From a virus: 26,328 bases of DNA. The translations under genes and the position numbers were made by a program. This document shows, piece by piece, positions 1 to 17,087 of this stretch (the first letter of the stretch is position 1; every line of letters starts with the position of its first letter). Below the pieces are notes generated by a model. The model searched no databases. It saw only the letters and a list, made by a program, of their open reading frames with translations, and was not told the origin of the DNA. The stretch spans positions 1 to 26,328 of IMG/VR virus record IMGVR_UViG_3300009436_000096. One strand, written 5' to 3'.

Positions 1-318
1 GGTGCATTTGGCGATGACATGGATTATCCTATTGACTTTAAGAAAGAAATGGCAGGTGACTTCTTTAGACCTGTAAGTTCTGATCCAAACATACAAACAA
101 TGAAGATGGCTTGCTATACTTGTCCTATGTTTGAAATATGTAATGGCTGTAGAAAAACAGTACGTGATATGAAACGAGAAGGAACTGTAGAAGAACACTG
201 TAAAAGAATGAAAGGTCTTGCACCTCGTATTTTAGAATCTAATGGAATGACTGCAGAATCAGTAACACCATACGTAGATGAATCTAACTCTAACTTAATA
301 GCAGTAGCTAATATATAA
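1..318 (+). CDS. Radical-SAM/SPASM-type protein, C-terminal part (5' end outside window)
   Basis: The frame is open from the first base, so this is the C-terminal end of a longer gene that begins upstream of the window. The visible part has a cysteine cluster C-Y-T-C-P-M-F-E-I-C-N-G-C (CX2CX5CX2C) followed about 18 residues later by another Cys. That is the usual form of a SPASM/twitch auxiliary iron-sulfur site at the end of radical-SAM peptide- or sugar-modifying enzymes. The CX3CX2C radical-SAM core itself is not in view. It ends two bases before the ATG of a second radical-SAM gene and is probably co-transcribed with it. The tail after the last Cys (about 35 residues) carries no recognisable motif. 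The class assignment is good; the substrate is unknown. Confidence 0.75.
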   Translation, partial: GAFGDDMDYPIDFKKEMAGDFFRPVSSDPNIQTMKMACYTCPMFEICNGCRKTVRDMKREGTVEEHCKRMKGLAPRILESNGMTAESVTPYVDESNSNLIAVANI

Positions 319-320
319 TA

Positions 321-1220
321 ATGAATATATCAATTAATCCTACTTATTACTGTAATTTTCGATGTGATTTTTGCTACTTAACTGAAGCACAACTCGCCGA
401 TAGGAATAAGATTAGCCCTGAAAAACTTGATGAAACATTAAGTAAAGTTACAGATCCAATAGATCATATTGATTTATATGGTGGTGAAATTAGCCTATTG
501 ACAAAAGAGTATTTTTATGATATAAAGAAAGTAATACGCAAGTACTACGATGGTACTATCAACATCAATACTAATTTTTCTGCTTTGCCAGATTATTTTT
601 ATGATGACGATATTACTATCAGTGTATCGTATGATTTTTCTGCTAGAGAAAAAGAACAATTTGTTTTAAACAATATGATGGCTTCTCTTAAGCCGTTGTC
701 TGTTTTAATATTAGCATCTGAAAAGGTGCTGGAAACCGATGTAGAGTTTATGATCTTTACATTAAACATGTGTGCACAGGTAAAGTCTGTTGAGATTAAA
801 CCATACTCTACTAACCAGGCTAATGCTCACCCAGTAACACACAAAGATTTCGAAGAGCACATTAAAAAATGGATAGATTCAAAAACGGAGAAAAGGTTTC
901 AGTTTATAAATCAAGAATTAATCGAAGATGCGCTCGATGGTAATTATTCAGCTTTCAGTGACGATCATGTATATATAACACCGAAGGGTAAATTCGGCGT
1001 GCTGGAGTTCGATAAATACGACCGAGAGTATTTTAAAGAATATTCTGAGTATGAAGAATACAAAGAATGGGCAAGACTAGAACCTATTAATAATGTATCA
1101 GATATATGTAAAGAATGCCCATACTACGGCGGGTGTTTAACTGAACATTACCGATGGGTTAAAGACTTAGACAATAGTTGCAACGGTTATAGAGGATTAT
1201 TAGACTGGTATGATGAATGA
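321..1220 (+). CDS. Radical SAM enzyme with SPASM-like C-terminus (299 aa)
   Basis: The N-terminus carries the radical-SAM cluster motif C11-N-F-R-C15-D-F-C18 (CX3CX2C) and a GGE motif at residues 54-56, the usual SAM amino-group contact. A second cysteine group at the C-terminus (C263, C266, C272, C287; CX2CX5CX14C) looks like a SPASM/twitch auxiliary [4Fe-4S] site. The enzyme is expected to cleave S-adenosylmethionine to a 5'-deoxyadenosyl radical in the cytoplasm; its substrate cannot be inferred. At 299 residues it is shorter than typical SPASM enzymes (350-450 aa), suggesting a reduced barrel. It starts two bases after the preceding radical-SAM gene and overlaps the next gene by 11 bases, so all are probably one operon. 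Confidence 0.88.
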   Translation: MNISINPTYYCNFRCDFCYLTEAQLADRNKISPEKLDETLSKVTDPIDHIDLYGGEISLLTKEYFYDIKKVIRKYYDGTININTNFSALPDYFYDDDITISVSYDFSAREKEQFVLNNMMASLKPLSVLILASEKVLETDVEFMIFTLNMCAQVKSVEIKPYSTNQANAHPVTHKDFEEHIKKWIDSKTEKRFQFINQELIEDALDGNYSAFSDDHVYITPKGKFGVLEFDKYDREYFKEYSEYEEYKEWARLEPINNVSDICKECPYYGGCLTEHYRWVKDLDNSCNGYRGLLDWYDE

Positions 1221-1617
1221 TATGAAAGATTGGAAAGCAAGCCAAGCGGCGTTTCACATGGCAAACAAAAGTTTTAAAGACGATTTAACAGATGAGGATA
1301 TTAAGTACTCAGATGATATCGTTGATGATGTATTAATGCATTTTGCACAATATGTCGATGAGTGGATTTATCCTGCAAAATCATATGTCGTAGGTATATG
1401 TTACGCAAAATGGTTAGAGCAAGATTTCGGAGAGGACTTCTATGAAGTACTTGACGATCCAGAATTACTATATGGCAATGATCCATATTTTGTTCCTTAT
1501 TCAGAAGATGAACAAGTATATGATGCTATATTAAAAGAGTTAGATTTTAAAGAAGATATTGGTATGGTACCAGATATTTACGAGTATTATCGAGAGGAAA
1601 TGTTCTTTGGTAGCTAA
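1210..1617 (+). CDS. Small acidic protein between radical-SAM genes (135 aa)
   Basis: I do not recognise this protein. It is strongly acidic, rich in Asp, Glu and Tyr, predicted mostly helical, and has no signal peptide, membrane segment or metal-binding cysteine set. It opens with clustered methionines (ATG at 1210, 1213 and 1222). A Shine-Dalgarno-like AGAGGA at 1191-1196 fits the first of these best. It overlaps the upstream radical-SAM gene by 11 bases and is followed directly by another, which implies translational coupling. A partner, chaperone or substrate-presenting role for the flanking radical-SAM enzymes is possible by position only. It lacks the obvious leader/core layout of a peptide precursor. 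Confidence 0.7.
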   Translation: MMNDMKDWKASQAAFHMANKSFKDDLTDEDIKYSDDIVDDVLMHFAQYVDEWIYPAKSYVVGICYAKWLEQDFGEDFYEVLDDPELLYGNDPYFVPYSEDEQVYDAILKELDFKEDIGMVPDIYEYYREEMFFGS

Positions 1618-2725
1618 ATTTCCAAATGGTTCGTTAATAATGACAGACCGTCAGAGAAACAACGGGTTAGTTAACCCTGCGGATCCTGAAGCTGATGCAG
1701 TGACTAAAATTATCCTTGAGGATAAGCGTCCTGATATCGGTGAAATAGAACTTACTCTATTTGAAAACTGTCATTTGAATTGTTTTTTCTGTCACCATGA
1801 TAAGAAATCGACTGTAGGATTATCTAGAGAAGAAATATTCTCTAAGTTAACCCTTGTTGAAGATCATCTTATTAAAATGAAAGGCAGAGCCGACGTTGTT
1901 CAAATCAATATGGTCGGTGGAGAGTTATTTCAAGATAGAATATCTGAGTGGGCTTATCCAGTTTACTATGATTTCTTACTTGCTATTAAAAAGCTATACG
2001 ATAAATACGATCATAATATCAAAGTTGTGTGGGTAACATCATTTCAATTTGCTAAAAGAGATCGTGTACAAAAACTTATCGATGATTTAAATGCAGCAGA
2101 TATACCGTCTTATATTATATGTTCATATGATTTTGATGGTAGACCTGTTAAAGGACCATACGGTAAGAATATAGAATACTTTGCAGATTATATTACATCA
2201 ATTAATATGGTTGCAACTGTTCCTTCTATTGAGAAGTTTATGGAAGACAAAGATGAATATTTCCATTACTTATATAATAAGTTTGATAACTTCTATTTTG
2301 ATGATTACATTCCTGATAAAGGTTTTGATCATTTAATACCAAGTGATAGTTTATATCTCGAGTTCTTAAAATTCGTGTATCATAACTATCCTGATATTAA
2401 TCCCATGAAAGATCTTATAAGTAAAGATAAGAACCATATGCATTGCTTGTCATTAAACAAGGTTACGATCTTTCCAGACAATAGTACATCTAATTGTCGT
2501 TGGGATAGGTATACTCCAGAAGACTTTAATACACCATTGCATAGAAAAGATAATGCTTCGATGATGCAAGCCTATATGGATGAACACGGATGCTTATCTT
2601 GTAAATGGTGGAATAAGTGTGGATTTAGATGCTATACACAGTGGGATTGGAAGAACCGTGAACGTGATTTACCTGACTGTATTATGAGAATGTGGTTTAA
2701 CTATATGGAAAAAAATAAATTATGA
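1607..2725 (+). CDS. Radical SAM enzyme with SPASM-like C-terminus
   Basis: The core motif is C-H-L-N-C-F-F-C (CX3CX2C) at about residues 44-51 counted from the ATG at 1640, with a downstream VGGE. The C-terminus has a cysteine-rich region (CLSCKWWNKCGFRC, then a later Cys) typical of SPASM/twitch auxiliary cluster domains. I prefer the TTG start at 1607 because a GAGAGG ribosome site at 1592-1597 lies about 9 bases before it. The ATG at 1640 has no convincing site. The TTG overlaps the upstream gene by 11 bases, the same overlap length as at the previous junction. It overlaps the next gene by four bases. The reaction and substrate are unknown. Confidence 0.88.
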   Translation: MVAKFPNGSLIMTDRQRNNGLVNPADPEADAVTKIILEDKRPDIGEIELTLFENCHLNCFFCHHDKKSTVGLSREEIFSKLTLVEDHLIKMKGRADVVQINMVGGELFQDRISEWAYPVYYDFLLAIKKLYDKYDHNIKVVWVTSFQFAKRDRVQKLIDDLNAADIPSYIICSYDFDGRPVKGPYGKNIEYFADYITSINMVATVPSIEKFMEDKDEYFHYLYNKFDNFYFDDYIPDKGFDHLIPSDSLYLEFLKFVYHNYPDINPMKDLISKDKNHMHCLSLNKVTIFPDNSTSNCRWDRYTPEDFNTPLHRKDNASMMQAYMDEHGCLSCKWWNKCGFRCYTQWDWKNRERDLPDCIMRMWFNYMEKNKL

Positions 2726-3420
2726 AACTAGATTGCTATACATTTGATGAAAATTTAATTACATTACAGCCTATACAAACAAAATCACCTAAGCCAAAAT
2801 GGTGGAATGGTTTAAAGAAGCTGTATAAAGTATTTGATATTAAATCAGGAATTGAAGTTCCTAGCCCAACAATTAAGCTATGTCCTGGCGTAGTAGATTA
2901 TATGCGTAATGCTATTGAAATAAAACTATGGACTGATGCTATATTCAAAGTCTATCCTGATGGTAAAGTAACTACTGCTTCTCCATTACATGAAGGCAAT
3001 GCTATGATAGCGGGCGTACACTCAGAAAAGCAAACAGGTCCTGATTTATATCCAGGAAGAACTGTTGTAAAGATTACAAACCCTTGGTGTGTTGTTGGAT
3101 CAGATAGAACACAGTTTATGTGCACCGAAGTACATTACTCAGAAGATTTAAGAGAACATGGAATAATTGTATCACCAGGAGTTCTAAACTTCTATGATCA
3201 GCATGCACTTAATATATTCTTAGTGTTCCCTTTAAAAGACGAACCATATGAAATAGAATTAAAATATGGTACACCTTTAATGGGCTTACATCCTTTAACA
3301 GATAAGCCTGTTGAAATTGAATGCCATAAAGCTGGCAGGGAAAAGTTTAACGATATATTAGCTAATTTCCCATCTACGTTTTTTGGTAGATATTATGCTA
3401 AGAGAAAGGTTACTAAATAA
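2722..3420 (+). CDS. Unrecognised protein in radical-SAM/2OG operon (232 aa)
   Basis: The start codon overlaps the stop of the preceding radical-SAM gene (ATGA). The stop is immediately followed by the oxygenase gene, whose ATG shares the last base, so this is a coupled operon member. The sequence is Trp- and Pro-rich at the N-terminus and then a long run of alternating beta-type segments. The latter half (for example LKYGTPLMGLHPLTDKPVEI) suggests a small beta-barrel or beta-clip-like fold. There are no cysteine clusters, P-loop or membrane segments. The layout (short CY near the N-terminus, early W, conserved R/C/P positions) loosely recalls the DUF6065 family of proteins of unknown function, but I would not assign it. 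It could be the substrate or a partner of the neighbouring enzymes. Confidence 0.65.
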   Translation: MKLDCYTFDENLITLQPIQTKSPKPKWWNGLKKLYKVFDIKSGIEVPSPTIKLCPGVVDYMRNAIEIKLWTDAIFKVYPDGKVTTASPLHEGNAMIAGVHSEKQTGPDLYPGRTVVKITNPWCVVGSDRTQFMCTEVHYSEDLREHGIIVSPGVLNFYDQHALNIFLVFPLKDEPYEIELKYGTPLMGLHPLTDKPVEIECHKAGREKFNDILANFPSTFFGRYYAKRKVTK

Positions 3421-3980
3421 TGGAATATCTTAGTCTATGGCCTACAGAAGTAGCCAAAGGTAAGTTTGATACTACAGGAATGGTGGATTACATTTTAACA
3501 CACTATGATATTAACAACCTACATTCCGAAACATCGGGTTTTAATATGTTCGATAACGATCATGAAACTTTAAATGCGTTTAAAGACATGTGTTATGAGA
3601 ATTTTGACCATTATCTCACAAATACTATCGGTAAAAGGATATCAAACTGGGGTAATTATACTATGAAATCATGGCTTACGGGCCACGGTAACGATTATAG
3701 TATGACAATACACAATCATTCAGGGGCTCATTTGTCGGCTGTATATTATGTATTGGCGGAAGAAAAGAATGCTGGCGGGGATATAGTATTTACTGATCCT
3801 CGTTCAAATGCAAATAGAGGGTACGATGATAATTTTGAACCTATGTTTAAACAGTTCAAGCATGTACCCGAAACTGGAGACTTTATGATTTTTCCTAGTT
3901 TTACTTATCATCACGTTAATCCATACCTTTCTAACCTTAGAATGTGTATACCTGTAGATCTATTTCTGCATAGAGGATAA
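3420..3980 (+). CDS. Putative 2OG-Fe(II) oxygenase (186 aa)
   Basis: The C-terminal half matches the phage/bacterial 2OG-Fe(II) oxygenase family often called 2OG-FeII_Oxy_5 (TIGR02466-like). It has an HxH-type segment with small residues and LSAVYYV (residues 98-111), then GGDIVFTDPR (119-128). A GDFMIFPS strand (153-160) precedes the distal His (YHHVNP, H164/H165), and the 2-oxoglutarate-binding Arg is probably R174. These enzymes hydroxylate proteins or small molecules using iron, oxygen and 2-oxoglutarate, and are common in marine T4-like phages. The length is normal for the family. It closes the radical-SAM operon; after its stop the intergenic region contains late-promoter-like boxes. 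Confidence 0.85.
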   Translation: MEYLSLWPTEVAKGKFDTTGMVDYILTHYDINNLHSETSGFNMFDNDHETLNAFKDMCYENFDHYLTNTIGKRISNWGNYTMKSWLTGHGNDYSMTIHNHSGAHLSAVYYVLAEEKNAGGDIVFTDPRSNANRGYDDNFEPMFKQFKHVPETGDFMIFPSFTYHHVNPYLSNLRMCIPVDLFLHRG

Positions 3981-4868: not shown

Positions 4869-5918
4869 ATGCACGATTTGCATATGGGCGGCTTAGCAGC
4901 TTGGGCTTTAAAAAGAGGTGGGTCTCTACACCCAGTATTATTACCAACATCAGTAACGGGTAATGAAACTGGAGTTATGAATCCATCTATTTTTGCTCAC
5001 AAAGGCAAGCTCCTTCTCAACATTAGACACATTAACTATATCCTCTATCACAGTGAGGGCAAACAGTTTCCGCATCAGTGGGGACCGTTAGTTTATGTTC
5101 ATCCCGAAAATGATGTAACCTTAACCACGCATAATGTTATGTGTGAACTCGATAGTGGGCTGAATCTGAAAACAGCTCAAAGAGTTAATATGGCATTAGA
5201 TACTGGTAAACCTACCTGGAACTTTATTGGTTTAGAAGATGCTCGTTTATTCGAGTGGGAAGATAAACTATATCTTTGCGGTGTACGTAGAGATTGTTAT
5301 GATTCTAAAGGCACTGGTCGTATGGAATTATGCAATATTGATTTAGTAGATGGTGCATGGACAGAAATATCTCGCCATCCTATTCCAGCTCCAGGAGACG
5401 ATGGTAGCTTCTGTGAAAAGAACTGGATGCCAGTTATAGATAAACCTTATCACTTTGTTAAATGGTGTAACCCTACTCAAGTGGTTAAGTTTAATATCGA
5501 AGAAGGTACAACTGAGGTTGTATATGAAGATGAGTTTGAAAATCGTCAACCCTATGCTAAAGACTTCCGTGGTGGTTCACAAGTTATTCGTATTAACGAA
5601 AACCAACGCATGGCATTTATTCATGAAACAAATCTATTAAGAGATCCCTTTGGTCGTAAAGATGGTGATTATTCTCACCGTGTATTGATATGGGATAATG
5701 ATTGGAACCTGATTCATGCTTCACGTAATTTCCATTTTCTAGGTACTTACTTTGATCATGTAACTGGTACTGATTATAACATTGAGTTTGTTACTGGTAT
5801 GACTATACATCCTGATACAGGTGATATGCTTATATCGTTTGGATTCCAAGACAATGCAACATTTGTTTTAAGAATGCCGCAAAAACTGTTTCTAGATTTT
5901 TTAAGTGATAAGGGTTAA
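4869..5918 (+). CDS. GH130/GH43-like five-bladed beta-propeller protein (349 aa)
   Basis: The motif GLEDARLFEW (about residues 121-130) and the later EKNWMP (183-188) with HFVKWCNPTQVV are typical of beta-propeller sugar-active proteins related to GH130 (mannoside phosphorylases) and GH43/GH32-like folds. In those, GxEDpR lines the sugar pocket. Blade-like repeats run along the whole length, ending in a VTGMTIHPDTGDMLISFGFQ-type segment common to the group. There is no signal peptide, so the protein acts in the cytoplasm or on the virion. It could process a nucleotide sugar or glycan, or simply bind sugar as a receptor-recognition component. It is followed by a methyltransferase and a nucleotidyltransferase-cupin protein, suggesting a glycan-modification set. 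Catalytic competence cannot be judged here. Confidence 0.7.
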   Translation: MHDLHMGGLAAWALKRGGSLHPVLLPTSVTGNETGVMNPSIFAHKGKLLLNIRHINYILYHSEGKQFPHQWGPLVYVHPENDVTLTTHNVMCELDSGLNLKTAQRVNMALDTGKPTWNFIGLEDARLFEWEDKLYLCGVRRDCYDSKGTGRMELCNIDLVDGAWTEISRHPIPAPGDDGSFCEKNWMPVIDKPYHFVKWCNPTQVVKFNIEEGTTEVVYEDEFENRQPYAKDFRGGSQVIRINENQRMAFIHETNLLRDPFGRKDGDYSHRVLIWDNDWNLIHASRNFHFLGTYFDHVTGTDYNIEFVTGMTIHPDTGDMLISFGFQDNATFVLRMPQKLFLDFLSDKG

Positions 5919-5920
5919 TT

Positions 5921-7156
5921 ATGATGAAATTTAATATGAATCTTTTGAATGATGTTGTATTGGACTACGACAATCCTGATAAAATATATGCATTAGCTCG
6001 AGAGTACGACAAATTGGAACAGGGATCAGGAGCATTCAGTTTCTATCTACGTGCAGCTGATATGTCGGCAGGAAAAACCTTTGAAGAGAAATGGTTACAA
6101 TATAAATGTATGATTCTTTCTGCGTTTATCTATAAAAGAAATGATAATCGTAATCAAAGTGTTGAAGGTCTATTAAAGATTGCAATTGCAACATTACCTG
6201 AAAGACCAGAAGCTTATTACTTTCTTGCAGTAGTAAAACAAGAACGTGATGATTGGCGTGAATGTTTAATGTACACTACAATTGGTATGAGCAATATTGG
6301 AGATCATCCACTAGATAATGATATTGGTTATCCAGGTCATAATGCTTTAAAACTATTAAATGCGAGATCAAAGTGGAAGACAGATGGCAGGGATGCCTCT
6401 AAGAATTTAGCTTTTGATTTAAAATATAAGAATGTACTAAACAAAAAAGACTATAAAGCTGCAACAGTATTATTGGCAGAACACGGTTATCCAAGTACTC
6501 TTGCATATGATAAAACATTATTTAGTAATTATAAATTCAAGTTTAATGGACTTCAAGATATAGAACAGAACTACTCTCGACATTTCCAAGATATGTTTGT
6601 TCTATCTGTATTAGACGGTAAACGTAAAGGTACATTTGTAGAGGTAGGATCTGGCCATCCTGAATTATTCAATAATACATTACTATTAGAAAAAGACTTT
6701 GACTGGAGTGGTATATCAATAGATAACTCAGAAAGGTTTGCACAAATATTCAGTAGAAAAAGAGCTACAAGTATGCTCCTATGTGATGGTGCAACAACTG
6801 ATTATAAAGTACTCTTTAAACAACAGTGTTTAGAACAGCATATCGATTTTCTTAGAATAAATGCAGAAACAGCTTCATTAAAAGTTTTAGAAGCTATTCC
6901 TTTTGATAGACACGAATTTGGTATTGTTCAATTCCAACATAATGCTACATGGTGGGGAGACGATTTAAAAACTAAATCAAGAGAAATACTATCAAAAATC
7001 GGATATATATTATTAGTAAGCGATGTTGCAGTTGATGAGACTCAAAACTATGAAGATTGGTGGATACATCCAATGTATGCTAATCGAGTTGCACAAATGA
7101 GATCTAATAATAAAACAAACTTTGCATGGAACTATATGATGGAGAAAGTTAAATGA
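5921..7156 (+). CDS. TPR-like domain fused to FkbM-type methyltransferase (411 aa)
   Basis: The N-terminal 200 residues are helical, with a TPR-like segment around ERPEAYYFLAVVKQERDDW (94-112). From about residue 237 the protein has a SAM-dependent methyltransferase fold of FkbM type. Motif I is GTFVEVGSGHPELFNNT, an acidic strand end is GISIDNS (264-270), then comes DFLRINAET..LKVLEAI. FkbM enzymes O-methylate sugars or similar small groups. The TPR plus FkbM combination occurs in surface-glycan gene sets. Two methionines open the gene (5921 and 5924). The 3' end overlaps the following nucleotidyltransferase gene by four bases (ATGA-type coupling). Substrate unknown; a glycan or virion protein sugar is inferred from the neighbours. 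Confidence 0.8.
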   Translation: MMKFNMNLLNDVVLDYDNPDKIYALAREYDKLEQGSGAFSFYLRAADMSAGKTFEEKWLQYKCMILSAFIYKRNDNRNQSVEGLLKIAIATLPERPEAYYFLAVVKQERDDWRECLMYTTIGMSNIGDHPLDNDIGYPGHNALKLLNARSKWKTDGRDASKNLAFDLKYKNVLNKKDYKAATVLLAEHGYPSTLAYDKTLFSNYKFKFNGLQDIEQNYSRHFQDMFVLSVLDGKRKGTFVEVGSGHPELFNNTLLLEKDFDWSGISIDNSERFAQIFSRKRATSMLLCDGATTDYKVLFKQQCLEQHIDFLRINAETASLKVLEAIPFDRHEFGIVQFQHNATWWGDDLKTKSREILSKIGYILLVSDVAVDETQNYEDWWIHPMYANRVAQMRSNNKTNFAWNYMMEKVK

Positions 7157-7914
7157 AACCAGTATTAATAACAGGCGGATTTGATCCGATTCATTCGGGT
7201 CATATCGCATATATGAAAGCAGCTAAAGAACTCGGATCTATTCTATATGTCGGAGTAAATTCTGATGAATGGTTAACTCGTAAGAAAGGTAGACCATTTA
7301 TGTCATTAGAAGAAAGAATGGCTATTATTAAAGAAATAGGATGTGTAGGTCACGTATTCTCTTTTAATGATGATGACGATACGGCTATTAATGCTATTGA
7401 ATATGTAAAATACTCTGCACCTCGTAACGCTGAAATTATCTTTGCAAATGGTGGAGATCGTACAAAGGGTAATATCCCTGAAATGTTTAGTGGTGGAGAT
7501 CAAGTAAAGTTTCACTTTGGTGTAGGTGGAGACGATAAAAAGAATAGTTCGTCTTGGATTCTAAATGAATGGGATAAACCTACTACTCAAAGACTGTGGG
7601 GAAAATATCGTAATCTAGATTCTAACGGTCATTGGAGAGTAAAAGAACTATCAATTGATGTTGGTAAGTCTTTATCAGACCAACGACACTTCGTGAGATC
7701 CGAACATTGGCATATTGTTGATGGTGAATTGAAAATGAATCTTGAATTCAAGAACGGTTACACTTCATCTAAGATATACAAAACTGGTGACAGCATCGAC
7801 ATACCGATAAATACATGGCATATGGCGACCAATGTCGGTGACAAACCGGTTAAAGTCATAGAAGTTTGGATGGGATATACCTTATCCGAAGAAGATATTG
7901 AAAGAAGAACTTAG
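7153..7914 (+). CDS. Nucleotidyltransferase-cupin fusion (253 aa)
   Basis: Residues 1-140 form an HxGH-superfamily cytidylyl/adenylyltransferase: GGFDPIHSGH at 8-17 gives the nucleotide-binding HSGH, and GGDDKKNSSSWILNEW (125-140) resembles the RfaE/TagD C-terminal motif. Residues about 145-245 form a cupin close to the C-terminal domain of type II mannose-6-phosphate isomerase/GDP-mannose pyrophosphorylase, with LSDQRHFVRSEHWHIVDG (174-191) giving the metal-binding His set. This pairs activation of a phosphorylated sugar or polyol with a sugar-binding or isomerising domain in one chain. The fusion closes the sugar cassette. Its product would be a nucleotide-activated sugar for surface or virion glycosylation, which is inference; the exact substrate is not readable. 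Confidence 0.85.
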   Translation: MKPVLITGGFDPIHSGHIAYMKAAKELGSILYVGVNSDEWLTRKKGRPFMSLEERMAIIKEIGCVGHVFSFNDDDDTAINAIEYVKYSAPRNAEIIFANGGDRTKGNIPEMFSGGDQVKFHFGVGGDDKKNSSSWILNEWDKPTTQRLWGKYRNLDSNGHWRVKELSIDVGKSLSDQRHFVRSEHWHIVDGELKMNLEFKNGYTSSKIYKTGDSIDIPINTWHMATNVGDKPVKVIEVWMGYTLSEEDIERRT

Positions 7915-10169: not shown

Positions 10170-10850
10170 ATGGCAACGAATGCATACTTTAGAAATTACA
10201 ACAATTTCAATGAACAGAATTTAATTGACGATCTAGTAATCGAATCAATTCGAATGTATGGCATTGATGTTAAATACCTTAGTGGCAAATTTAACCAAGT
10301 TGATAAAATCTTTAACGAAGACGATACACCGTTATATGACGAGATGTACGGCTTTGAAGTATACGTTAAAAATGTCGATGGCTTTGAAGGTGAAGGCGAC
10401 TTCCTATCTAAATTCGGTCTACAAATCAGAGATCAAATTACTTTCAGTGTCGCAATAAGAACATTTGAAAGATATGTTACTCGTAAAGATTCAGAGAAAA
10501 TACGTCCAAGAGAAAACGATATTATTTGGTTACCTCTTAATCAGAAAATGTATAGAATTACTTACGTAGAACATGAAAGCGTATTCTATCAAGCAGGTAA
10601 GTTACAAGTTTACGATATCAAATGTGAACTTATGGAATTCTCTAATGAGAGATTCGATACTGGTAGACCTGAAATTGATGAGTACTTTGATGATATTAAA
10701 TCTACTGATGATGTTGTACAGACACTAGAAGATGTGGCCAACAATGATCCAATAGCTCAGAACTTTGAATTCGAAAAAATATCTGATGATATATTAGACT
10801 TCTCTGAAGTCGATCCATTCAGTGAAAACATTAGCATAGAGGATTCCTAA
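10170..10850 (+). CDS. gp14: Neck protein gp14-like (226 aa)
   Basis: This sits between gp13 and gp15 as in all T4-like phages. It carries the family pattern (YFRNYNNFNEQNLIDDLVIESIRMYG near the N-terminus, then DIIWLPLNQKMYRITYVEHE..FYQ.GKLQVYDIKCELMEFSNERFDTG). The product forms the neck or collar joining the filled head to the tail. T4 gp14 is 256 residues. The C-terminal 50 residues are very acidic. Its stop overlaps the gp15 ATG by one base. Confidence 0.9.
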   Translation: MATNAYFRNYNNFNEQNLIDDLVIESIRMYGIDVKYLSGKFNQVDKIFNEDDTPLYDEMYGFEVYVKNVDGFEGEGDFLSKFGLQIRDQITFSVAIRTFERYVTRKDSEKIRPRENDIIWLPLNQKMYRITYVEHESVFYQAGKLQVYDIKCELMEFSNERFDTGRPEIDEYFDDIKSTDDVVQTLEDVANNDPIAQNFEFEKISDDILDFSEVDPFSENISIEDS

Positions 10851-12943
10851 TGGCTATTGCAAATTACTTTTATAATGAAACTACGAGAAGATACGTAGCT
10901 TTATTCGGTACATTATTTAACCAGTTAAAAATCGAAAGATCAGATAACGCTGGTACTAAAATACAATCTATGATTGTACCACTATCTTATGCCCCAGCTC
11001 AAAAGATTCTTGCAAGACTCAGAGATGATCCTGACTTATTAAATAGTCGTAGAACTGCTATGACTCTTCCTAGAATGTCTTTTGAAATCACGAGTTTAAA
11101 CTATGATCCACAACGTAAAATTGGATCTACTCATAAGATGACAAAGTCTGCAAAAGCAGAAACAGAATCATCACGTAATTTTGTACACTCAGCGGTACCA
11201 TACAATTTAGATTTTTCTTTATACATTATGACAAAGTATTCAGAAGATGCTACAAAGATTATGGAACAAATCATTCCATTCTTTACTCCTGATTGGACTG
11301 TAACTGCTAAGATGGTTAATGATTTAGATCCTATTGATATTCCTATTATCCTTAATGGTGTTACCACCGAAGATCTTTACGAAGCTGATTTTGAATCACG
11401 ACAAACCATTATGTACACACTCAACTTTACATTAAAAGGTTGGTACTTCGGACCAGAGAAGAAACAAAAGATAATCAAATTTATTGATATAGATATGATG
11501 ACTGATACTGCCTCAAACGCTCCTCGCCAAGAAGGTGTTACAATTAAGCCAGGACTAGATTCAAATGGTAATCCATTAAATGAAGATGGTGTTGGAGTAA
11601 CAGCAGTTGCATCACTTACAAATGGTACTGTTGATACAATTGCAATTACAAACGATGGTGAAAACTATGATGCTAATAATAGTATTGCGGTAACAGTTGC
11701 AGCTCCAGATGCTTTAGATGCCAGCATTACAGCCAATGTATCGAATACAGCAATTGCTTCGTTCAACATACTTGAGGCTGGAGGGTTCTATTCTAGCTTA
11801 CCAAATATAACTATAACTCCTCCAAACATGCCCGTAACAACCGCTGCAGTGTCACAGATCATTGCTGGAGGGGCCATTACATCTATCAATATAGACAATC
11901 CAGGTACATACTATAATTCAGCCACTATTGCAATATCTGAGCCACCGGCTAAATCACCTTATGTTAAATTTGGTGATGATGCTTTATATCACGATAGCCA
12001 TACTGATACAACATTACTTCATACAACAGGAATTAATTTCGTAACAGCGGGTAGTGGTTATGCTATCGAGTTTTGGATATATCCAACAGAATTTAATGCA
12101 AACGATAATGTTATTCTACATATGAATGGTTCTCAAATGAGAATTGAAATAGAAGATGGCACTGGAACTCTTGCATTATTCTACGCAACAGGTGGTGCAC
12201 CATGTAGGTCAACTCCTGAAACATTAAATCTTAATGCATGGAATCACTGTCGTGTTGAACACTTTGGTGCAAATGCAAGATGGTTAGTAAACGGTGTAGC
12301 TGATGCTGGCACCTCAGGTCCTCAAGGATTCTTACTCGGTGGTGGAGCACAGGTTATTGCCGGTGAACGTTCTGCAAACGAAAGATCTTTCCTAGGTGCA
12401 TTAGATAACGTTAGTATTTCTACAATTAGTGCATTAACACCTGCTGGTACATACACAGTACCGACTGATCCAACAAACGGAACAGATTACACTGGTAACT
12501 TTGATAAAGATATTGCTTCGGCAGATCTTGTTGTTACCAACGGTGAAGTCACTGGTGTTACAATAACAAATAACGGTTTAAACTATGACGCTAATACAGT
12601 GTTTACAATATCAGCACCAAATGGTGTTGCTGCAGATTATCAAGCAACTGCAACTCCGGTCTTAGTAGACGGAAGCGTAAACTCAATCACTATAAATAAT
12701 AGTGGTAAGTTCTACACCTCGGCAAATGTTTCAATCGATTCAGTAGTTACAAGTACTGCAACGGCAAACATAGTAATTGATGGTACAGGACAAGCCACAA
12801 GTATTAACGTAACAAATGCTGGTTCTGGTTATCGTACAGCTCCTGCAGTTACAATTGGAGGTCCAGCCGCAACGTCAGTACCATATACACAAATTGAATT
12901 TGATGACGACTGGGGTATTATTACAATATTTGAGGATGAATAA
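10850..12943 (+). CDS. gp15: Tail sheath terminator/stabiliser gp15-like with large LamG-containing insertion (697 aa)
   Basis: Residues 1-235 match T4-like gp15, the tail-completion protein that caps the sheath. Motifs include AIANYFYNETTRRYVALFG, LNSRRTAMTLPRMSFEI and a GWYFGPEKKQKIIKFI segment at about 197-212. T4 gp15 is 272 residues; here the chain is 697. Residues 250-366 contain three Gly/Tyr-type beta repeats. About 369-545 is a concanavalin A/LamG-like domain (GYAIEFWIYPTEF; LNLNAWNHCRVEHFG; WLVNGV; FLGALDNVSIS). Residues 567-672 contain three more repeats. The last 17 residues (IEFDDDWGIITIFEDE) return to a gp15-like acidic C-terminus, so the extra part is an insertion, not a tail. 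It probably projects as a sugar-binding decoration from the neck. gp14 and gp16 flank it with one-base overlaps. Confidence 0.9.
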   Translation: MAIANYFYNETTRRYVALFGTLFNQLKIERSDNAGTKIQSMIVPLSYAPAQKILARLRDDPDLLNSRRTAMTLPRMSFEITSLNYDPQRKIGSTHKMTKSAKAETESSRNFVHSAVPYNLDFSLYIMTKYSEDATKIMEQIIPFFTPDWTVTAKMVNDLDPIDIPIILNGVTTEDLYEADFESRQTIMYTLNFTLKGWYFGPEKKQKIIKFIDIDMMTDTASNAPRQEGVTIKPGLDSNGNPLNEDGVGVTAVASLTNGTVDTIAITNDGENYDANNSIAVTVAAPDALDASITANVSNTAIASFNILEAGGFYSSLPNITITPPNMPVTTAAVSQIIAGGAITSINIDNPGTYYNSATIAISEPPAKSPYVKFGDDALYHDSHTDTTLLHTTGINFVTAGSGYAIEFWIYPTEFNANDNVILHMNGSQMRIEIEDGTGTLALFYATGGAPCRSTPETLNLNAWNHCRVEHFGANARWLVNGVADAGTSGPQGFLLGGGAQVIAGERSANERSFLGALDNVSISTISALTPAGTYTVPTDPTNGTDYTGNFDKDIASADLVVTNGEVTGVTITNNGLNYDANTVFTISAPNGVAADYQATATPVLVDGSVNSITINNSGKFYTSANVSIDSVVTSTATANIVIDGTGQATSINVTNAGSGYRTAPAVTIGGPAATSVPYTQIEFDDDWGIITIFEDE
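11630..12865 (+). repeat. Six Gly/Tyr beta repeats flanking a LamG-like domain in gp15
   Basis: Repeats of about 25 residues with pattern v.siti.n.G..Y......v.i..p lie at gp15 residues 261-286, 302-325, 342-366, then 567-590, 610-630 and 649-672. The period within each group is about 38-43 residues. The LamG-like domain at about nt 11954-12484 lies between the two groups of three. Similar repeats are common in phage tail and fibre proteins and are not themselves diagnostic of function. Confidence 0.75.
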
Positions 12944-15101: not shown

Positions 15102-17087
15102 ATGGCTTTTTCCGTAAGTCCTTCCGTCATTGTTCGAGAAGTGGATGCGAGTCAGGCAGTACCAGGCGTTGCGACGGCCCCAGCGGCATTAGCTGGCATA
15201 TTCAAGTGGGGTCCAGTTAACGATCCTATCTTGATTACCTCTGAGAATGAACTAGTTGAACGTTTCGGTTCCCCAACCGACGACAACTATGAAACATTTT
15301 TCACAGCAGCAGACTACCTCTCATATTCAAATGCACTATATGTGACTCGAGCAGATGATAACTCAAACACCGCAACCTCTACGACAGTCGTATTGGATGC
15401 TAATAATAACATTATAGCAGATGATAGTACCTTCGGTGCGTTCTCAGCTAAATACCCTGGCGCATTAGGTAACTCTATTGAAGTTTCTTGGTCTACCGCA
15501 AAGGCGTTTATGTCTGAAATCGAACCAGTAGGTGGAATTGATTCTAACCAAATTGGTGATGAATCAGTATCGCAAACCATTGGATTTAATTCTAATGAAT
15601 TATCATTCGAAGTTGAAGCAACATTGGATGCAAACAACGCCGTAACAGCAACTAACGTTGAACCTGTTTATGTAGGCGATGTTCTTGTAATCGGTAACTC
15701 AAGTGTTGGATACCAAGACATAGTCGTAACATCAGTAGAAAATACAGATGTTGAAGGCACAGTTGGTGTTGGTAATAACGCTGTTACAGTAACAATTGCT
15801 ACAAAAGTAGATATTGGACTTGGTTCAAGATATACATTAGCTGAGACTGATCTAAGTAAGGTATCAATCACTAGAAAGTGGGCACAAAATGCACTATTTG
15901 GTAAAGCACCAAGTGTAGGACATGTTCATATTACAGTCTCTGATAAAGATGGTTTAATCACAGGTACACCTAATACAGTACTTGAAGTATTCGAAAATCT
16001 TTCAACAACAGCAGGTGCTCAAGGCGCTCAAGGTGGAACAAACTATTACGATACAGTAATCGAAAATATGTCTTCTTGGGTCAAAGTTGCTAATACTGCA
16101 GTAGTTACTGCGGCTATTTCCAACGAAGATGACGTCGCTACTGCTAAGGTAACAGCATACGAAAGAATGGCTGCCGGATCTGATGCTTCAACTGAAAGTA
16201 CAGCATCGTTAAGTGGTCTAGCATTTGCATGGGATACATTCAAAAATACAAACGAAATCGACATTAGCTTTATCCTTCAAGGTAAGGGTGATGATCTAGG
16301 TGTTAGAGCTAACTATATTATCTCTAATGTTGCAGATTATCGTAGAGATTGTGTTGCATTCATCTCACCATCTAAAGAAGCAGTCGTTGACGAAGTAAAA
16401 GCAAATGATAAGTTAGTAAATGCTATTGCATATCGTAACAGAATTCAAAATTCATCTTATGCATTCATCGACAGTGGTTATAAATATAGGTATGACAAGT
16501 ACAATGATCAATATCGTTGGACACCATTAAACGGTGACATGGCCGGTCTTTCTTCAAGGGTTGATCCTTGGGAATCTCCAGCTGGTTACAGAAAAGGTAT
16601 TATCAAAAATATCGTTAAATTAGCGTTTAACCCAAGCAAACCACAAAGAGACCAGTTATACAGCTCGGATGTTAATCCGGTTATGTCACAAGCAGGTCGT
16701 GGAATTGTACTATTTGGTGATAAAACAGGTCTTGGAATGGCAAGTGCTTTCGATAGACTGAATGTTCGTAGATTGTTCATCTCAGTTGAAAAAGCGATTG
16801 CTACTGCGGCTGAAAGTTTCTTATTCGAGTTCAATGACGATTTCAGTCAAACTCAATTTAGAAACATAGTTGATCCATTCTTACGTGACATCCAAGGTCG
16901 TCGTGGTATTATTGATTATAGAGTTGTTAGTGATTCTACAGTTAATACACCGGATATCGTAGATGCAAATAAGTTCCGTGCAAGCATATTCATTAAACCA
17001 GCTAGGTCTATTAACGTTATCGAATTAACATTCGTTGCAACTAGAACCGGCGTTGAGTTTGACGAAATTGTTGGTCAGATCGCATAA
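15102..17087 (+). CDS. gp18: Contractile tail sheath protein gp18-like (661 aa)
   Basis: The N-terminus (SPSVIVREVDASQAVPGVAT) and the region (ALAGIFKWGPVNDP..I.SE.ELVERFGSPT) are the signature start of T4-like sheath subunits. The C-terminus (FRASIFIKPARSINVIELTFVATRTGVEFDEI) is the conserved core that forms the sheath mesh. Length is almost the same as T4 gp18 (659). About 140 copies polymerise around the tail tube and contract at injection. It follows the terminase after a 103-base gap and precedes gp19 by 27 bases with its own late-type box. Confidence 0.96.
   Translation: MAFSVSPSVIVREVDASQAVPGVATAPAALAGIFKWGPVNDPILITSENELVERFGSPTDDNYETFFTAADYLSYSNALYVTRADDNSNTATSTTVVLDANNNIIADDSTFGAFSAKYPGALGNSIEVSWSTAKAFMSEIEPVGGIDSNQIGDESVSQTIGFNSNELSFEVEATLDANNAVTATNVEPVYVGDVLVIGNSSVGYQDIVVTSVENTDVEGTVGVGNNAVTVTIATKVDIGLGSRYTLAETDLSKVSITRKWAQNALFGKAPSVGHVHITVSDKDGLITGTPNTVLEVFENLSTTAGAQGAQGGTNYYDTVIENMSSWVKVANTAVVTAAISNEDDVATAKVTAYERMAAGSDASTESTASLSGLAFAWDTFKNTNEIDISFILQGKGDDLGVRANYIISNVADYRRDCVAFISPSKEAVVDEVKANDKLVNAIAYRNRIQNSSYAFIDSGYKYRYDKYNDQYRWTPLNGDMAGLSSRVDPWESPAGYRKGIIKNIVKLAFNPSKPQRDQLYSSDVNPVMSQAGRGIVLFGDKTGLGMASAFDRLNVRRLFISVEKAIATAAESFLFEFNDDFSQTQFRNIVDPFLRDIQGRRGIIDYRVVSDSTVNTPDIVDANKFRASIFIKPARSINVIELTFVATRTGVEFDEIVGQIA

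Follow-up and report, generated by a model that had tools for sequence, protein, structure and literature searches.

The virus record IMGVR_UViG_3300009436_000096 (26,328 bases, analyzed over its whole length and called the window here) opens inside an operon of radical S-adenosylmethionine (radical-SAM) genes, which we call the CHS operon; the 5′ edge of the window cuts inside RSAM1, the first of these genes that it contains. We find that relatives of this operon encode a protein with the C-terminal tail CHxSCHxSCHxSRGRR. This CHS protein is the recurrent candidate substrate and the likely target of the enzymes and, judging from gene order in relatives, would be encoded just off the left edge of the window. 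Linkage of the genes strongly indicates that its tail is the enzymes' target, and gene position together with the literature indicates an association with the fiber or virion. We consider it probable that the operon carries out successive radical-SAM tailoring of a fiber-associated virion protein, which may touch the target cell.

A scan of viral contigs with an alignment of RSAM2, the 299-amino acid (aa) enzyme of the window, yielded 273 relatives, of which 80 were kept as loci. One near relative (L010, 95% identical in RSAM2) holds the whole operon, encoded on one strand throughout with mostly overlapping genes, in the order tail fiber, CHS-A (125 aa), CHS-B (127 aa), RSAM5, p364, p269, RSAM6, cupin, RSAM4, RSAM1, RSAM2, p135, RSAM3, p232 and 2-oxoglutarate (2OG) oxygenase. 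Because L010 shows the complete gene order, the window can be seen to lack the first ~9 kb of the operon, cut off at base 1. In L010 these ~9 kb encode the putative substrate, three more radical-SAM enzymes, the cupin and two more proteins of unknown function, and the full-length homolog of RSAM1 is found at L010:8932-9999. A DUF7936-type gene 3′ of the 2OG oxygenase in the window has a similar gene at the same place in L010. A contig 100% identical to the window (L008) adds just 333 bases upstream, and we infer that the window's own phage carries the same upstream half as L010.

Each of the jumbo-phage clusters read (Phosso, Atu_ph07, FLC6 and DT01) contains one open reading frame (ORF) ending in CHxSCHxSCHx(S/A)RxRR. 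Scanning viral contigs at the DNA level for this motif only, we recovered at least 120 stretches. Radical-SAM families of the operon are present in 115 of the 120 motif loci listed, the others being mostly short or edge-truncated. Among the matches listed, the motif forms the exact C-terminus of every ORF (225/225), and 154 distinct CHS proteins agree on the Cys, His, Ser and RxRR end, an invariance that is partly by construction because the search pattern demanded three CH and R.RR. The reverse test, in loci found via RSAM2 only, therefore matters: a CHS gene is present in 13 of 13 loci with the RSAM4-x-p269 slot and in 29 of 31 with a complete p364, and the two p364 loci that lack it end inside or at RSAM5. 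In the 74 loci that contain CHS together with RSAM2, the remaining genes are RSAM3 (73), p269 (73), RSAM4 (71), RSAM1 (70), p135 (61), cupin (60), 2OG oxygenase (41), p364 (33) and p232 (15); the 2OG oxygenase and p232 are therefore accessories. An identical set of seven phage records was recovered for RSAM2, RSAM3, RSAM4 and p135.

CHS proteins are of two types. Those of T4-type clusters are ~120-140 aa long and usually occur as tandem pairs, and those of ~170-310 aa are found in jumbo-type clusters and in many environmental contigs too. Alignment of the two types by hhalign gave a probability of 99% with the tail included and 7% with the tail removed, and no homology between the two bodies was detectable by hhalign once the tail had been taken away. 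Because the bodies align only with the tail, the C-terminal tail is the conserved unit. The AlphaFold model of CHS-B (predicted local distance difference test score, pLDDT, 79) consists of a helix, a beta hairpin and a long helix, and its tail is poorly predicted (pLDDT 53-59). A single 151-kb phage contig (IMGVR_UViG_3300025138_000014), the origin of loci L152, L165 and L071, carries a tandem-type CHS pair and, separately, a jumbo-type CHS cluster. Three motif matches, in the bacteria Pseudoclavibacter (L089) and Thauera (L097) and in a viral contig (L123), were set aside as chance, since none has an operon gene nearby or an ORF with the motif in frame.

The enzymes belong to the radical-SAM superfamily with SPASM/twitch-type auxiliary clusters, as judged from CxxxCxxC and C-terminal cluster cysteines. 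The CxxxCxxC motif is present in 100% of RSAM1-RSAM6 homologs (28-105 sequences per family), and the auxiliary-cluster cysteines are kept at 99-100% across all six families, with full SPASM-like sets in RSAM1, RSAM3 and RSAM4 and four-cysteine sets in RSAM2, RSAM5 and RSAM6. For RSAM1, 12 cysteines are conserved across 87 homologs, 11 of them at 100%; for RSAM3, CxxxCxxC is found in 90/90 homologs and the SPASM cysteines in 99-100%. No NCBIfam model came near its cut-off for the operon enzymes, except a generic SPASM domain model in RSAM4 homologs. The original prediction had described the radical-SAM genes of the window as related but diverged, in agreement with the 13-25% pairwise identity of the six operon paralogs, and had proposed an undescribed multi-enzyme operon modifying one peptide or protein target, which our results support. 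We looked for two outcomes that would speak against such an operon, genes scattered singly in relatives and loss of cluster cysteines; the genes are not scattered, and the cysteines are kept.

In tandem-CHS loci with room for it, the ORF directly upstream of CHS-A contains a fiber C-terminal domain in 50 of 51 cases, the lone exception being a contig of a bacterial metagenome-assembled genome (MAG). Where a jumbo-type locus has a fiber-domain gene, it lies at a distance of at most 4 kb (52/53). The CHS protein of Atu_ph07 is gp170, the first gene of the structural-protein cluster, coding sequences (CDS) 170-215, that is defined by mass spectrometry of the virion in the published proteome study (PMC6102473). 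Published observations on radical-SAM genes in other phages agree with this context. Aeromonas phage 332-Vera has eight within its structural cluster, termed "highly unusual" (PMC12390700), and pelagimyophages have radical-SAM cassettes within a host-recognition island of fiber genes between VrlC and gp14, a placement like that of the CHS operon but with no operon content or function proposed (PMC7029224). DT01 has six, tied by its authors to DNA repair and host metabolism (PMC8541153), and a T4-like environmental genome has twelve (PMC5332604). No substrate is named in these four papers, and we found no published substrate link for phage radical-SAM clusters in the literature searched.

The system is common to several phage lineages (T4-type, DT01, FLC6 and Atu_ph07/Phosso), among them many large phages that are unrelated to each other, and cultured phages that carry it include Atu_ph07, Phosso, FLC6, FLC8, SURPRISE13 and DT01. 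According to the FLC6 paper, Ralstonia RSF1 and RSL2 share the enzymes. In FLC6 the CHS protein is gp72, RSAM4 is gp71, RSAM3 gp76, RSAM1 gp79, RSAM2 gp81 and p135 gp85; the CHS protein of DT01 is PA10_00065. The radical-SAM cluster of FLC6 encloses two dihydrofolate-reductase-like genes (L005, 7216-8429). A motif scan of ~85,000 prokaryote species gave 13 stretches, several of which look like virus contigs binned with hosts; L096 (Halobacteriovoraceae) and L099 are in chromosomal surroundings, with genes for ribosomal protein S20 and acyl-CoA dehydrogenase-like proteins recognized by eye. Bdellovibrionota carry chromosomal clusters as well: RSAM2 was detected in 18 of 369 genomes of this phylum, and one bacterial copy is on a 4.15-Mb contig beside Rieske and multiheme cytochrome genes. 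A terminase search of six MAG genomes gave no match; gene content told phage from chromosome for some of them. The tails of the Bdellovibrionota copies are looser (CHSNHCSHSNHGSRGRR, WCHSSHSSHSSHSSRGRR, YCHTNVPTPPPCHASRGRR), with the (S/A)R(G/S)RR end kept. Three bacterial CHS homologs (L241, 15294-15608; L242, 14603-15169; L243, 14594-15148) have proline-rich inserts within the tail and keep the SRxRR end; these are natural variants that could reveal the modified residues.

A gene for Peptidase_S74, an intramolecular chaperone of phage fibers, adjoins the bacterial clusters in three cases, behind a prepilin-type start that was matched by PF07963 in two and recognized by eye in the third. In L240 a prepilin-type gene runs off the fetched stretch. 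S74 fibers are prey-recognition adhesins of Bdellovibrio (PMC10769870), and the S74 proteins beside bacterial CHS clusters resemble these phage-fiber-type MAT / Peptidase_S74 adhesins; they differ in carrying a type IV prepilin start, and a radical-SAM partner is unmentioned in that paper. The RSAM2 tree, which is unrooted with long branches, has several deep lineages, bacterial as well as phage.

Systems in which radical-SAM enzymes mature ribosomal substrates are already known. The HxsABCD system (TIGR03977, TIGR03978, TIGR03979; Haft and Basu, as cited in PMC9062424) likewise combines multiple radical-SAM enzymes with a nearby protein whose C-terminus bears an H-x-S repeat, and the bacterial CHS homolog L239, with its WCHSSHSSHSSHSSRGRR end, resembles it. 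However, HxsA is matched at 16.1 bits against a cut-off of 121.65, over the repeat alone, HxsB at 35.7 against 370 and HxsC at 26.2 against 267.9 bits, all outside family membership, and the six enzymes, invariant SRGRR end, cupin and fiber neighborhood are those of the CHS operon, not of Hxs. The CXXX-repeat systems (TIGR04115) and the PapB ranthipeptide maturases (NF047865) recall the Cys at every fourth residue of the CHS tail (C-H-x-S-C-H-x-S-C), and RSAM4 has PapB, which makes Cys thioethers, among its best curated matches. These matches also fall well short of membership (NF047865, 50.3 versus 340 bits; TIGR04115, 21.4 versus 350 bits), and the CHS protein has no CX3D pattern and a virion-like body instead of a short precursor. 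The quinohemoprotein amine dehydrogenase maturase is a radical-SAM/SPASM enzyme acting on a structural protein subunit, not on an exported peptide. RSAM3 matches its model (TIGR03906) weakly, at 13-18 bits against a cut-off of 453, and the substrate and context are different.

A dedicated precursor with a conserved core beside its modifying enzymes, as in systems for ribosomally synthesized and post-translationally modified peptides (RiPPs), is found here, the CHS gene being linked to the enzyme genes in both directions. No leader-recognition domain, protease or export function was found in the cluster proteins scanned, where unrecognized versions are possible. The near-invariant CHxSCHxSCHxSRGRR terminus, the six dedicated enzymes, the fiber-side location and the sharing between phages and bacterial predators are undescribed in Pfam, NCBIfam, PHROGs and the searched literature, and there is a real chance that the CHS operon is a new class of system.

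We propose the following mechanism. Upstream of base 1 the window's phage would carry a tail-fiber gene and genes for one or two CHS proteins, RSAM5, RSAM6, RSAM4, the cupin and two unknown proteins. The CHS protein would be made with its C-terminal tail in a flexible state, as the model supports. Because the genes are linked in both directions and the tail is conserved, RSAM1-RSAM6 very likely modify this tail, probably one after another, and p135 and p269 would be their partners for binding or scaffolding. The chemistry could consist of thioether or C-C cross-links of Cys/His, other radical modifications or a metal site, and the PapB match of RSAM4 is a lead only toward Cys thioethers. The 2OG oxygenase, cupin and p232 may add optional finishing or varying steps. 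The product would be the modified C-terminus of a virion protein, not an exported peptide, and gene order together with the Atu_ph07 cluster boundary suggests that the CHS protein probably sits on the fiber or virion. More tentatively, the tail may contact the host or prey surface as a rigid or metal-binding adhesive tip, an adhesion hypothesis that we draw mainly from the fiber-type neighbors in both phages and bacterial predators; predatory Bdellovibrionota would use the same device beside pilus-anchored, fiber-like proteins. It is conceivable, if rather speculative, that phages and bacterial predators share a device in which six or more successive radical-SAM reactions build a non-proteinogenic, fiber-associated tip that recognizes Gram-negative prey, and such tips would form a new class of adhesins or receptor ligands that are assembled after translation.

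Several observations weigh against this proposal, in addition to the built-in part of the tail's invariance. Gene linkage is the one basis for pairing the enzymes with their substrate, and the upstream half of the operon is taken from the relative L010 and not from the window's own phage. A fiber-domain gene is present in only 53 of the 107 jumbo-type loci, many of which are short. The putative presence of gp170 in the virion is deduced from the cluster boundary in PMC6102473. The CHS model has no significant Foldseek match in PDB or BFVD, and no leader-recognition domain (RiPP recognition element, RRE, or PqqD), protease or exporter was recognized in the operon clusters scanned. The tail also diverges in some bacterial copies (HSSHSSHSS, or PPP inserts), so the near-invariant tail is a property of phages more than of bacteria.

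We weighed other candidates for the substrate and its fate. The original prediction had suggested the 135-aa or the 232-aa protein as target or partner. Their genes are packed with the radical-SAM genes, and p135 always accompanies RSAM2 in the seven phage records. The modeled p135 is a well-folded, conserved helical partner (pLDDT 88.5) with no CHx tail and no flexible Cys-rich tail, its sole conserved Cys (C64) is inside a helix, and the model has no PDB match (Foldseek E≤0.001; VIA-align). As p232 is an optional accessory missing from most clusters, and the CHS tail is found wherever its slot is covered, neither protein is supported as the substrate and we regard this reading as very unlikely. 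The CHS protein could instead be the precursor of a secreted RiPP (bacteriocin-like, a signaling peptide or a metallophore), its body serving as a cleaved leader. The best matches of the enzymes are indeed to RiPP maturase models (PapB, DynA and DarE; 36-50 bits), and the CHS tail looks like a core peptide whose end is flexible. However, all of these matches are far under the NCBIfam cut-offs (e.g., 50 versus 340 bits), and no cluster seen has a recognized protease or transporter. In usual RiPPs the core varies and the leader is kept; here the CHS core hardly varies and the body does, and the CHS gene follows a fiber gene and sits at the start of a virion-protein cluster. A secreted product is thus unlikely.

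Two further readings concern what the enzymes do. The tail could be a metal or heme site, with the radical-SAM enzymes building or inserting a cofactor to give an iron-bearing fiber tip, akin to the "Ferrojan horse" idea. CHxSCH, with its fixed Cys/His spacing, reads as CX3CH, a rare variant of the c-type heme motif, or as a Cys/His metal site; many phages with the system are marine, and another marine phage has been proposed to have iron-binding fiber domains (PMC11705849). We give this reading little weight, as no cytochrome c maturation genes were seen in the clusters and bacterial tails without CX3CH exist (HSSHSSHSS); it is compatible with fiber tailoring, and both may hold. Auxiliary metabolism, in which the radical-SAM genes would serve DNA repair, heme or host Fe-S metabolism, was the guess made for DT01 (PMC8541153) and in the Fe-S paper on the T4-like genome with 12 radical-SAM genes (PMC5332604). 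Against it, the radical-SAM genes are constantly linked to CHS and fiber genes and no operon enzyme matches AhbD, NrdG, MoaA or another metabolic equivalog above cut-off, and we find it hardly credible.

Within the window, the six ORFs of the original prediction are confirmed at its positions, namely three radical-SAM genes (one partial), the 135-aa and 232-aa proteins and the 2OG-Fe(II) oxygenase (Table 1). Their junctions are, in order, a 2-base gap and overlaps of 11, 11, 4 and 1 bases; the 11-base overlap of p135 and RSAM3 applies to the TTG start and becomes a 22-base gap with the ATG start.

Table 1. Genes of the CHS operon that lie within the window.
Feature	Coordinates	Strand	Matches and remarks
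RSAM1, 3′ part only: last 105 aa, SPASM-type cysteines	1..318	+	phrog_1802, E 4e-11; gene cut by left end of contig
RSAM2, 299-aa radical SAM (CNFRCDFC), single C-terminal four-cysteine cluster	321..1220	+	PF04055 over cut-off; phrog_1802, E 9e-35
p135, conserved acidic helical partner, 135 aa	1210..1617	+	phrog_20737, family without assigned function
RSAM3, radical SAM/SPASM; start TTG 1607 or ATG 1640	1607..2725	+	phrog_1802, E 2e-21
p232, accessory protein, 232 aa	2722..3420	+	phrog_7084, family without assigned function
2OG-Fe(II) oxygenase, 186 aa, accessory	3420..3980	+	PF13759, E 6e-14

The remainder of the window is a T4-type neck-tail-head module of structural genes (neck proteins, gp15-like tail-sheath stabilizer, terminase, sheath, tube, portal, protease, scaffold and major head protein). 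Between the operon and this module are three more enzyme-like genes (4869-7914), encoding a weakly beta-mannosyltransferase-like protein, a TPR protein with an FkbM-like methyltransferase (by eye), and a cytidylyltransferase fused to a mannose-6-phosphate-isomerase-type cupin; these are perhaps a surface-glycan cassette. The gp15-like stabilizer (10850-12943) is 697 aa long, with a long C-terminal extension that matches virion structural, fiber and baseplate families and contains a LamG/concanavalin-like segment by eye. The tail sheath (15102-17087; 661 aa) exceeds the matching PHROG by ~160 aa, probably owing to an inserted domain. Cyanophage S-RIM44 encodes a weak homolog of p232, flanked by halogenase and 2OG-oxygenase genes. 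The same fiber-to-gp13 slot of that phage (L007, 4634-10428) contains two "tryptophan halogenases", this p232 homolog and two 2OG oxygenases, and its annotation shows no radical-SAM gene; it is perhaps a different fiber-side tailoring set.

If the proposed tailoring is correct, chemistry made by radical-SAM enzymes would sit on phage virions where the host is contacted. This would explain the 6-12 radical-SAM genes of some phages, elsewhere unexplained or assigned to metabolism, and would give an entire group of orphan enzymes a substrate that can be tested. It would also be a protein modification with a conserved rather than a diversified target, and would connect predation by phages and by bacteria at the molecular level.

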